From positions 124,001 through 188,000 of the forward strand of contig JAHHHK010000015.1 in assembly GCA_019359395.1 (NCBI GenBank): a stretch of DNA of 64,000 nt. Direction: 5' to 3'. This DNA is from Komarekiella atlantica HA4396-MV6. GTDB taxonomy: Bacteria; Cyanobacteriota; Cyanobacteriia; Cyanobacteriales; Nostocaceae. Below the pieces are notes generated by a model that worked only from the letters and a program-made list of their open reading frames with translations, did no database searches and had not been told where the DNA came from. Positions 32,546-37,051 of the stretch are shown piece after piece. Both the position numbers and the translations under genes were made by a program. Every line of letters begins with the position of its first letter. Position 1 is the first letter of the stretch.

Positions 32546-32592
32546 ATGCCAGGAACCAGACTTGAACTGGTGACACGAGGATTTTCAGTCCT
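32546..32592 (-). repeat. distal attachment site (partial tRNA-Phe copy)
   Basis: The 47 bases are identical to 36978-37024 and correspond to tRNA-Phe from the anticodon loop to the discriminator base. Beyond base 32592 the tRNA similarity ends abruptly, so this is an attachment-site half and not a tRNA gene. Confidence 0.9.
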
Positions 32593-33885: not shown

Positions 33886-33890
33886 GATGT

Positions 33891-33969
33891 TATACCCTTA
33901 TAAATTTCATGTCATAAAATATGACACAGGATATGACATAGAATATGTCATATATTTTACAAGGGTATG
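33891..33969. repeat. TGTCATA array A with inverted ACCCTT borders
   Basis: Four heptamers (TGTCATA or its complement) start at 33910(+), 33920(-), 33932(-) and 33946(+), so spacings are 10, 12 and 14. Outer borders are TATACCCTTATAAATTT on the left and, inverted, CATACCCTTGTAAAAT on the right, the last 17 bases after the start of the last heptamer. It begins five bases after the integrase stop. Confidence 0.75.
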
Positions 33970-34125
33970 GACAGTGCATTGCTTTTTCAAAAAGGGATTA
34001 TCGCTTGTCTTTCTTTACAGCTTGCCGTCTGTGATCAGCTTTGATTTAAGTCGATTTTTTTATGGAGCCGTATAAGGTTCCTGGGCAAAAAAGCAGGCTA
34101 ACAGCGCGTTCCAGAACAAAAAGAT

Positions 34126-34151
34126 TTTTTAATACCTTAAGGTATTAAAAA
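34126..34151. repeat. perfect 26-base palindrome
   Basis: Two 13-base arms (TTTTTAATACCTT and its complement) meet without a loop around CCTTAAGG. It may be a bidirectional terminator-like hairpin, given T-runs on both strands, or a dimer binding site. It lies between arrays A and B. Confidence 0.7.
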
Positions 34152-34264
34152 GACGTTATTAGTTAGTCGCTACCGATAAGGCGTGTTTTGGGAAAATGAG
34201 GTTTAAGGCTGAATACTTTAAGGCTGATTAATTAGATCACTTTCTTTTTATTTATTGGCAGTGT

Positions 34265-34423
34265 TATACCCTTATAAATTTCATGTCATAAAATATGACA
34301 TTCGCTATGACACAGTAAATGTCATAGCTTTTTTATTGGTATATTACAAAAGAAAATGCGCTATGTCATTTTGCATGTCATAACGCGTGTCATATTCTAT
34401 GTCATATATTTTGTAAGGGTGTG
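34265..34423. repeat. TGTCATA array B, longest copy
   Basis: The first half repeats array A exactly in geometry: heptamers at 34284(+), 34294(-), 34306(-), 34320(+). A second half adds four same-direction heptamers at 34364, 34376, 34388 and 34400, a strict 12-base period (the first is TGTCATT). Left border TATACCCTTATAAATTT is identical to that of array A, and the right border (GTAAGGGTGTG) is 17 bases from the last heptamer. Confidence 0.75.
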
Positions 34424-34442
34424 TCACCGTCTTTTGAATCGC

Positions 34443-34577
34443 CTACACTTTCGATAAAATTTCCTTCCATTGTTCCTTAGTTCTTGCGGGGTAATGCTTT
34501 GCAAGGTATTGAGCATCAAGATCGATATTCCCGGTAATGGTTTTGCGAGTCCTTGAGTTATTCTTGAGTGTTATCAT
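34443..34577 (-). CDS. 44-residue hypothetical protein of the element
   Basis: A short frame starts at ATG 34577 behind AAGGA (nine bases upstream) and ends at TAG 34443. The product is basic (MITLKNNSRTRKTITGNIDL ... YPARTKEQWKEILSKV) and reads like a compact folded or DNA-binding peptide. It lies directly beside array B and reads toward it. I recognise no family; the ribosome site and amino-acid composition are the evidence. Confidence 0.45.
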   Translation of the reverse strand: MITLKNNSRTRKTITGNIDLDAQYLAKHYPARTKEQWKEILSKV

Positions 34578-34738
34578 GATGTTAAATCCTTAATTGTTTT
34601 GATTTTGTTTTCCCCTCGTTAGTTCGCAGCTATTGAGGGGAGTTGAGTTTTAAGTTGATAGATAAGACTCTCTTCTGTTACTGAGAACTACCCTAGAGAA
34701 CCCTATCGGGATATACCTTGTTGATTACCGTTAGGCTG

Positions 34739-35467
34739 TTACAGGGTATTTTTTTCCTTATGTGCATCTTTTATTGCCCTGGTAATACGTTCCGCTACAG
34801 TGCCTTTACGGTAACGGGAAAAGTGATATTTCACTCTTGCGACATGCTTAAGTGTGTCGATATCTTCAATATGGTTTAATCCCACACCTTTATCACCACA
34901 TACTTTTTCTAACTTCCGTAACTCACGAGCGGTCATCCCACACGCGGCGATAGCTAAAGCATCATGTGTTCTAGCAGGAGAGAACCCATAATCATCACAA
35001 GCGCGAGTAAATCCATTGTGTTGCTCTGAGAGATATTGTCTAGTCTGTTGCCACTTCTCAAACCAGTCAGCAGTCTGTTGCTCATATTGATGCTCTGTCT
35101 TGGTGATACAAAAAACATTGTCACATCGACGTTGCAAGGTTTCCTCCATACACGCAGATATCAAGGCTAAAGCCTTGATATTCCCCTTCATAGCCCGTTC
35201 AAGCCAGAATTTTCTAACCATTTCAATGGGTACGATGCTAACTCGTGAATTAAGTCCATCTACAGCTAGGCTGTAACACTCAGAACTATTACTAGGCAAT
35301 GAGTTCACGCTTATTGACCTGATAAAACGTAACACTGAATTTCGATGCTCATCTACTGCTCTCGCAACTTGTGCTTGATTCATCACATACTCACCATCGG
35401 GTAATTGAAATACTTCAATTTCGATACCAGCAAGGCTTATTAATTCTCTTTTTGCTTTAGTGGTCAT
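34739..35467 (-). CDS. element protein with antirepressor-like N-terminus, unknown function
   Basis: The 242-residue product begins with a segment of the type seen in phage regulatory proteins (VFQLPDGEYVMNQAQVARAV, then EHRNSVLRFIRS), suggesting a DNA-binding domain, and has a basic helical C-terminus (YHFSRYRKGTVAERITRAIK). No named family is certain. A strong GAGGAGG lies five bases before ATG 35467, within the end of the preceding gene, so the three minus-strand genes from 36058 to 34739 look like one operon. Confidence 0.6.
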   Translation of the reverse strand: MTTKAKRELISLAGIEIEVFQLPDGEYVMNQAQVARAVDEHRNSVLRFIRSISVNSLPSNSSECYSLAVDGLNSRVSIVPIEMVRKFWLERAMKGNIKALALISACMEETLQRRCDNVFCITKTEHQYEQQTADWFEKWQQTRQYLSEQHNGFTRACDDYGFSPARTHDALAIAACGMTARELRKLEKVCGDKGVGLNHIEDIDTLKHVARVKYHFSRYRKGTVAERITRAIKDAHKEKNTL

Positions 35468-35469
35468 AA

Positions 35470-35784
35470 TTAATCCTCCTCACTGTTTTGTTTGTTGTTA
35501 GCGTAAATATGAGCAGTATTTATTCCTACCCTGTTCAGTAAACCTCTGAGTATACTTACGAGCTTACGTGCTTGCTCATAGCGTGGTGAGGTACTTTTCT
35601 CTTCACAGATTTGTTCCCACTTTGTAATTTCTGCATCAAGTTCTAGCAAGAAAGGATAGATATCATCTATTTTTTCCGCAAGAACCACGGGCATCCGCTT
35701 GCGAACTGTAGGACTGTCAAACTTCTTTTTTCTGCCACCTCCCGGTTTGCGTGTACCCGTCTTAGGAATGCCTCTAGCAGCCAT
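35470..35784 (-). CDS. 104-residue basic protein, possible ribbon-helix-helix type
   Basis: The N-terminus is very basic and glycine-rich (KTGTRKPGGGRKKKFD), followed by TVRKRMPVVLAEKIDDIYPF, which has the strand-helix pattern of small plasmid or phage DNA-binding proteins, and a helical C-terminal half. It ends two bases before the start of the next gene. Function is not recognised; DNA binding is an inference from charge and pattern. Confidence 0.5.
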   Translation of the reverse strand: MAARGIPKTGTRKPGGGRKKKFDSPTVRKRMPVVLAEKIDDIYPFLLELDAEITKWEQICEEKSTSPRYEQARKLVSILRGLLNRVGINTAHIYANNKQNSEED

Positions 35785-35818
35785 AATTTATATCCTTTTC
35801 TTGATGTGAATAATTTAG

Positions 35819-36058
35819 TCAATACATGAACAGATGACGGTCAGGGTCTTGACCATCGTCGATGCTTTGCTGTATCGATTCAATGCGATTTTTTAGGGTT
35901 TGATAGCGTTTATCCAGTTCGGCAAATTGCTCAAGTATCGACTGAGGTGTTACTTCATCAGTTAAGCCAAAAAGAAATGTGGTTAGCCTTGTTGATTCAG
36001 CATTCAACTCTAAAGCACGAGTCTGGATGGTATTCAAGCTGTAATTGGCTGGTTTCAT
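35819..36058 (-). CDS. 79-residue hypothetical helical protein
   Basis: The frame reaches 36076, but ATG 36058 (MKPANYSLNTIQTRALELNA) is preferred. The product is mostly helix with a coiled-coil-like middle (EQFAELDKRYQTLKNRIESIQQ). It is the first gene of the leftward trio in the element, with array C in the divergent intergenic region upstream. No family is recognised. Confidence 0.5.
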   Translation of the reverse strand: MKPANYSLNTIQTRALELNAESTRLTTFLFGLTDEVTPQSILEQFAELDKRYQTLKNRIESIQQSIDDGQDPDRHLFMY

Positions 36059-36287
36059 AAATCTGTGTCGATGCAACTTAAACGTTTATTGACAGTAATA
36101 ACGCTATGGAAGTGAGAATCTCTAAATCCCTTGCTGTTACTGCCTTTTCTTATTTATAGCCAAGAAATAAGAGAACGTCAATTATTTTGGGACAAAAATA
36201 AGAACATAAGCTAAAACGCTTACCGTGTCTGGTAAGTTCTATCTTTGTGGATATTGAGCGCTGGATGAATGCTTTGTAGTGAGATGC

Positions 36288-36390
36288 TATACCCTCTTGA
36301 ATTCCATGACATAGGATATGACACTCAAAATGACATAAAACATGTCATATTCCATGTCACATTGCATGTCATAAACTTTGTAAGCATATA
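36288..36390. repeat. TGTCATA array C, near-perfect dyad upstream of the BRO-N gene
   Basis: Three minus-direction heptamers start at 36305, 36317 and 36329 and three plus-direction ones at 36343, 36355 and 36367: spacing 12-12-14-12-12, symmetric about the centre. Two are degenerate (AATGACA, TGTCACA). The left border is TATACCCTCTTGAA; the right one (GCATATA at 36384) is degenerate but again 17 bases after the last heptamer start. The array ends 18 bases before an ATG. Confidence 0.75.
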
Positions 36391-36407
36391 ACACCGTCGG
36401 TAAAACA

Positions 36408-36977: not shown

Positions 36978-37051
<74 letters not shown>

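Follow-up and report, generated by a model that had tools for sequence, protein, structure and literature searches.

The DNA considered here is a stretch of 64,000 nucleotides from Komarekiella atlantica HA4396-MV6 (contig JAHHHK010000015.1, positions 124,001 to 188,000), referred to as the window. It contains a 4.4-kb integrated element within the tRNA-Phe(GAA) gene, which has identical 46-bp repeats at both ends and carries a tyrosine integrase. The remaining genes of the element encode a Bro-N (Ant-like) protein and several small proteins, named where possible by the length of their open reading frame (ORF). Rows of short, regularly spaced near-palindromic sites lie between these genes and are the subject of this study; the first of them starts 3 bp past the integrase stop codon (Table 1).

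Table 1. Features of the integrated element, in window coordinates (aa, amino acids; att, attachment site)
Feature	Position	Strand	Evidence or remarks
attL, 46-bp copy of tRNA-Phe 3' end	32547..32592	-	identical 46-bp repeat
Tyrosine integrase, 392 aa	32707..33885	+	Pfam PF00589 E=1.6e-12; PHROG integrase 6.5e-45
Array A, 4 ATGWCAT sites	33888..33969	.	centres 33912, 33924, 33936, 33948; borders TATACCC / GGGTAT
Array B, two 4-site arrays, B1 and B2	34262..34424	.	centres 34286-34322 and 34366-34402
Possible small gene, 44 aa	34443..34577	-	a single weak relative (E=0.004) in the loci fetched
ORF242	34739..35467	-	Bro-N/KilA-N-like predicted fold N-terminally, helical C-terminal part
ORF104	35470..35784	-	basic N-terminus, predicted two-helix hairpin
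ORF85, predicted small protein	35819..36076	-	54% identity to part of an L079 gene
Array C, 6 sites, 12-bp steps	36285..36393	.	centres 36309-36369
Bro-N (Ant-like) protein, 132 aa	36408..36806	+	PF02498 E=1.6e-24; PHROG anti-repressor Ant 5.1e-47
tRNA-Phe(GAA) including attR	36979..37051 (attR 36979-37024)	-	ARAGORN; 46-bp repeat

A preliminary description of the region had reported three arrays of the heptamer TGTCATA in mixed orientation, and a check of the window sequence found all three in place. Counted on both strands, the heptamer occurs 20 times in the window (shuffled sequence: mean 9.7, largest value 18), with 14 of the 20 copies inside the arrays. Re-read on a TGWCA core, the arrays resolve into 18 copies of the near-palindrome ATGWCAT, arranged in four runs of 4, 4, 4 and 6 sites in which every centre-to-centre step is exactly 12 bp. 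The mixed orientation and the spacings of 10, 12 and 14 or 12-12-14-12-12 that were noted at first are an artefact of reading a palindrome with an odd number of bases, whose centre is A or T; the pitch is uniform, and array B, taken to be one array with two halves, consists of two separate four-site arrays. Four runs of at least four sites (18 sites in all) were thus found in the window against none in 200 first-order Markov shuffles, where the longest was a single run of 3. As for the borders thought to be common to the arrays, array C has its right border in the expected position after the last site, but this border is degenerate and reads AAGCAT, not AAGGGT.

Relatives of the genes of the element were sought in 217 genomes of the host's family, and were present, the host's own genome included, in 31 genomes for ORF242, in 12 for ORF104 and in 55 for Bro (at E<=1e-15). 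In a parallel scan, the named loci among the relatives belonged to Nostoc, Desmonostoc, Tolypothrix, Atlanticothrix and Dendronalium. Regions around the relatives were fetched selectively, best-scoring first, and a repeat in a related locus was counted as being of this type by eye (G, C and L numbers are our labels for genomes, contigs and loci). The closest relatives of ORF242 lie in 12 loci (L038-L040 and L078-L086), all of which carry at least one array, L084 a weak one only; some arrays are also present in the fragment L101. No array of this type was seen in L041-L049 and L087-L093, which are mostly distant ORF242 relatives or fragments and contain other repeats. Among the 14 loci fetched via ORF104 or Bro, arrays occur in L145-L148, L151, L152 and L158, and a single array in L150; L153-L155 have none, while L149, L156 and L157 have only repeats that were judged unrelated. 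The related elements are 4-20 kb long and their array units comprise 2-6 dyad sites. Outside these genomes, scanned viral contigs gave no match to ORF242, phage records none to ORF242 or the F5 protein, and plasmid records none to F5, F4 or ORF104; five IMG/VR loci with Bro relatives showed by eye two other repeats and no array of this type. Near one distant ORF242 relative (L045:1001-1228) a 14-bp unit is repeated 16 times in tandem, unlike the arrays.

The regular pitch is not restricted to the window. A site finder was run on 20 elements, and after L081 (mis-framed), L084 and L150 (one array each) had been left out, array statistics rested on 17 elements with 59 arrays. The finder accepted 12- and 13-bp steps and, at a penalty, 11-bp steps; all 185 steps were found to be 12 bp (107) or 13 bp (78). 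Outside the window, arrays of at least four sites take a 13-bp step at the outer positions (67 of 78) and a 12-bp step at the inner ones (61 of 67). Of 86 array sides (13 elements, 43 arrays), 50 had a TACC motif left of the outer site or a GGTA motif right of it; 14 of the 43 arrays had one on both sides and 7 on neither. At shifted places in the same loci the frequency averaged 9% and reached at most 19.5% in 200 draws.

Within the host's own genome, these arrays are restricted to the window element. A two-site pattern, allowing no more than two mismatches, matched 24 times in this genome, 16 times in the window element and otherwise as eight single matches, and its reversed control matched 12 times. 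A profile of 20 rows, all of the TGWCA class, gave seven matches at E<=1e-3 in the 7.8-Mb genome, every one of them inside the window element; the filters of this search were strict (25 of 2223 first-look candidates scored) and weak arrays could be missed. Run on the 217 genomes with 25 candidates scored per genome, the profile, by which arrays with other words are not countable, matched 13 genomes. The matches are clustered in elements in G161 (at least 25 matches), G182, G184, G196, G179 and G170, and the one match each in G141 and G160 also lies at an element. In G061 the match is an isolated array next to a degenerate element gene, a remnant; that in G222 falls within an open reading frame made up of tandem peptide repeats and is probably unrelated, and those in G193 and G233 (E about 1e-4) fall outside the element-assigned set. 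The arrays are therefore neither scattered over the genome nor deprived of their spacing in related elements, and the exact pitch, the confinement and the geometry kept in relatives back the earlier proposal that a multimeric DNA-binding protein works on arrays restricted to a single mobile element. A lone TGWCA array with a degraded element gene was observed at L197:8847-9629, near the znuB-like gene that follows the window tRNA-Phe, and may stem from an old element that occupied this locus.

What changes from element to element is the word within the sites. TGTCATA is not the common word of the arrays, which belong to a family with many other words. The window element has YATGWCATR, and words of the TGWCA form recur in L079, L080, L085, L145, L148 and L151. 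L147 has GGTGWCACC; L146, L152 and L158 have ASTRWYAST/AGTRNYACT; L086 has AACGWCGTT; L082 has TACTTWAAGTA, as nearly does L040; L039 has TASTYSRASTA and L038 TTATYSRATAA. Within most elements the word is nearly uniform. L038, L039 and L082 share a common backbone with arrays at three syntenic positions, and for all nine of these arrays the fit to the remaining arrays of the element concerned is better than the fit to the same position in the other two elements. When each array was left out in turn and scored, its own element was the best for 38 of the 59 arrays, and all 21 misses went to an element of the same word class. The array 3' of gene F5 similarly has the TGWCA word in L151 and AGTRNYACT in L152 and L158. 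The window element and a second element on contig C45 (L038) are found in one host with different words, and therefore an element-encoded factor, not a host protein, is likely to set the word. A dispersed repeat, such as a miniature inverted-repeat transposable element, is ruled out by the confinement together with the nine of nine syntenic arrays that follow the element and not the position. If the arrays are indeed protein-binding sites, these many words on one geometry would constitute a natural test set for specificity change in a DNA-binding protein.

In order to relate the arrays to genes, we used automatic gene calls, which are noisy. Of the 59 arrays listed, 56 have called neighbours on both sides, and these lie between tandem (27), divergent (12) or convergent genes (17). 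Of the outer array centres next to a stop codon, a quarter are no more than 20 bp from it (median 66); next to a start codon, a quarter are at about 32 bp or less (median 144). The distance from the nearest array centre to the Bro start is 39 bp in the window (last centre of array C to ATG), L080 and L151, the latter two values stemming from one identical module, 40 bp in L146 and 60 bp in L147. The possibility that the GGGTAT borders are promoters is not supported, since a promoter scan gave fewer hits than shuffles and arrays also occur between convergent genes. Two terminator-like structures were noticed in the window element, namely a perfect 26-bp palindrome between arrays A and B (34126-34151) and, on the + strand at 34304-34338, a hairpin formed by the final two B1 sites and followed by a T-run.

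Candidates for a protein that binds the arrays come from the genes of the element. The preliminary description had asked whether the arrays always accompany the same gene. We observed a Bro/KilA/Ant-type protein in 18 of 18 elements compared, 17 of which had been found with ORF242, ORF104 or Bro as query and the G182 elements by the array profile; single-linkage clustering placed them in an ORF242 family (10 elements) and a Bro/Ant cluster (12), which overlap. The association hence holds for the type of protein but not for any single orthologue, and no one protein is convincingly tracked by the word. ORF242 matches no Pfam family, Bro-N and KilA-N included. Its AlphaFold2 model (mean predicted local distance difference test score, pLDDT, 80) was compared by Foldseek with a viral library, where six matches at E<=1e-3 included a Nodularia phage KilA-N protein (3e-5) and a baculovirus Bro protein (4e-4), with low template-modelling (TM) scores of 0.26-0.43 by query length; against the PDB there was none at E<=0.001, the best having E=0.04. 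The predicted N-terminal domain thus matches a Bro-N/KilA-N-like fold at low TM-scores, and ORF242 may be regarded as a putative regulator. ORF104 (pLDDT 70, helices predicted with low confidence at 33-62 and 67-86) is a candidate accessory or binding protein. No ribbon-helix-helix (RHH) or ParA-type ATPase match was found in Pfam among the ORFs of the window element, nor any Rep initiator in Pfam or PHROGs. RHH-type proteins do occur in larger relatives; the RHH_5 match of the G182 element exceeds its cut-off, and those of the G160 element fall slightly short of theirs.

Based on these observations, we propose that the arrays are filament-forming operator or stoperator sites for a dimeric protein encoded by the element, and we consider the case for this to be evenly balanced. 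A homodimer would occupy each near-palindrome of about 9 bp, and adjacent dimers would touch at the 12-13-bp pitch so as to build a short nucleoprotein filament on each array, often bounded by the inverted TACC/GGTA borders. Such filaments at gene boundaries would keep the integrated element silent. An array just before a start codon would act as an operator, and one after a stop codon or between convergent genes as a roadblock, or 'stoperator'; the Bro/Ant-type proteins may be either the binder or its antagonist. The term is taken from the Cluster A mycobacteriophages such as L5 and Bxb1, where many repressor sites are likewise spread over a temperate element, most of them away from promoters, and the motif differs between heteroimmune relatives (PMC6550527). 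The arrays share this spread over the element, many of them being away from promoters. Mycobacteriophage stoperators are asymmetric 13-bp sites, mostly in one orientation, whereas the sites described here are symmetric, grouped by 2-6 per array at a 12-13-bp pitch and flanked by inverted borders, and no asymmetric orientation with transcription was observed in these near-palindromes. Stoperators also have a repressor, whereas here there are candidate binders only, and word and protein do not convincingly co-vary in our small sample. Of the three functions suggested in the preliminary description, spread operators fit best; an iteron origin or a ParABS site is disfavoured because the defining partner protein is missing in the 4.4-kb element and the arrays are dispersed at gene borders.

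Several results weigh against an operator role played by such a protein. No array was detected within 100 bp upstream of four of nine Bro genes (L079, L148, L152 and L158; L145, with an unclear start, is left out of this count), and the promoter scan of the window element returned 7 sites where 13.0 were expected. The Ant-type assignment in G182 is weak (P22_AR_N, E=0.014). In Mantel tests, word distance did not follow the distance between ORF242 proteins (r=0.14, p=0.18), their N-domains (r=0.21, p=0.12) or C-parts (r=0.10, p=0.24), nor that between Bro proteins (r=0.08, p=0.30; r=-0.22, p=0.87 on leaving out L151) or integrases (r=-0.12, p=0.73); the value for ORF104 (r=0.59, p=0.026) comes from 8 loci and is uncorrected for seven tests. 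The Bro proteins of L146 and L147 are 89% identical over 110 aa, yet their words differ, and it is unlikely that Bro-N is the sole determinant of specificity. One array of the G160 element (L206:7159-7191) has the TGWCA word, its other arrays having AGTRNYACT. Elements with the same word co-exist in G231 and in G161 (L080 and L151), where simple word-based immunity predicts otherwise. The two G231 elements, L082 and L083, match at 97% identity along a block of 8.2 kb and at 91% along one of 1.0 kb. No letter differs between their four arrays in the compared stretches, yet ORF242, which lies between these blocks (L082:9030-9800, L083:8587-9387), has a protein identity of only 52%. Judging from this comparison, the ORF242 gene looks to have been exchanged, or to be under diversifying selection, apart from the arrays. 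ORF242 is therefore now a weaker candidate for the array binder, and our confidence in the operator proposal was lowered by the same finding. As a determinant of the word, ORF242 lacks support from the Mantel test and is disfavoured by its absence from several array elements and its apparent exchange in L082/L083 with unchanged arrays. This pair, alike except in ORF242, amounts to a natural swap experiment for the gene.

A broader view of the operator proposal would be that phased dyad rows with borders form a portable 'filament operator', the inner word of which is rewritten jointly across almost all arrays of an element and serves as a compatibility code, ORF242 being a second, separately exchanged specificity. 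We put this forward tentatively, and would rather expect it to be wrong. It would extend, with equal caution, from 4-kb mini-elements to virus-like forms of 20 kb, some of them sharing one tRNA-Phe integrase type, and on this speculative scheme the word would decide which elements, minis and large helpers alike, control each other. We rated it lower because two near-identical elements with identical words share one genome. Should the arrays be as they seem, the specificity class of an element could be read from DNA without phage culture, and it could be predicted which mobile elements of these cyanobacteria might cross-regulate.

It is also conceivable, though we regard it as unlikely, that the arrays are centromere-like sites, the bound filament serving to tether or segregate the element in an excised state resembling a plasmid, as Omega does on pSM19035, perhaps with repression as a second role. 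The parS sites of pSM19035 consist of short direct and inverted repeats in several arrays at promoter regions, with one Omega dimer per repeat (PMC9499535), and a multi-copy layout in mixed orientation at several promoter regions speaks for partition. The pSM19035 heptads differ in being contiguous 7-bp repeats bound by an RHH protein with a ParA partner, against the 12-13-bp pitch and the lack of an RHH or ParA match in the window element, which is moreover integrated. A plasmid form of such elements is suggested by L164 (NZ_CP064893.1), a circular plasmid of 20,757 bp from Tolypothrix sp. PCC 7601. Three L080 element genes, of 524, 561 and 262 aa, have relatives on it with 43, 39 and 52% identity, respectively, but no array judged convincing was found there. 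Stoperators and the pSM19035 heptads are the closest precedents for the arrays, and neither matches them completely.

The bordered units might instead be recombination or gene-cassette boundaries through which genes are shuffled between elements, which we think improbable. Arrays do flank single genes, their borders are inverted, and ORF242 seems to have been swapped between two elements that are otherwise nearly identical. In G161, a pair of Bro and Ant-type genes with flanking arrays is 100% identical in two different elements (L080:10832-12220 and L151:7468-8856), and on this identity is a recent exchange between them. Words that differ at the same position between elements would, however, hinder such exchange, and the window element was found to carry no recombinase other than an integrase of the tRNA type, which has att repeats of its own.

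Iteron replicons typically have phased short repeats close to their origin, and in iteron plasmids these are bound by an element-encoded protein. An origin of this kind, with an initiator bound to the arrays and replication of the element governed by them once it is excised, is very doubtful here. The larger relatives carry an ATPase (F4), replication-like in our reading and located beside an array in some elements, which had a single match in the PDB (E=0.81). No replication initiator was detected in the 4.4-kb element in Pfam or PHROGs, and there are usually two to eight dispersed arrays per element in place of one cluster. Silencers are generally attracted to foreign DNA, but that the arrays are sites of a host nucleoid or regulatory protein is highly improbable, given that the profile matches nowhere else in the host's own genome and that the words of two elements sharing this host differ.

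A literature search, with most subscription journals outside its coverage, returned no description of such arrays. The TAACTGA heptamers of Beggiatoaceae and cyanobacteria resemble them as mostly intergenic heptamer arrays in bacteria, but they have one fixed word, in direct repeats and in many sets per genome (PMC4679880), whereas the arrays here are element-confined, palindromic and phased, with a word that varies. On account of this difference in layout, translational repeats of the TAACTGA type were rejected as an explanation.

The integrated elements themselves differ widely in size and site. The 46-bp att repeat of the tRNA-Phe 3' end was found in five of six tRNA-Phe loci tested, the window included; L158, in the part fetched, has none. 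The tRNA-Phe elements of the window, L078, L086 and L146 span 4.1-5.0 kb. The G160 element, also at tRNA-Phe, covers about 20 kb (G160:C12, about 124900-145000; its ends lie in L206 and L152), and its cargo comprises the F4 ATPase, a lectin-domain protein matching phage tail families and several large unassigned genes. One of its proteins is PD-(D/E)XK-like in our reading, and a 525-aa protein has relatives in 75 of the 217 genomes, many over the C-terminal part only. Two copies of an element with mostly unassigned genes, again with a lectin-domain protein and an ATPase, were observed on G182:C2 (L195 and L196). The large G160 and G182 elements possibly represent an undescribed family of integrating viruses or plasmids, and the mini-elements may be satellites or remnants of larger elements; if so, small tRNA-Phe islands would be tied to the 20-kb elements. 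In elements outside tRNA genes (L038, L039, L040, L079, L082, L145, L148 and L151) paired GAGCAT/ATGCTCA repeats are present near one end, in several cases directly before host genes, and these are probably their attachment sites.

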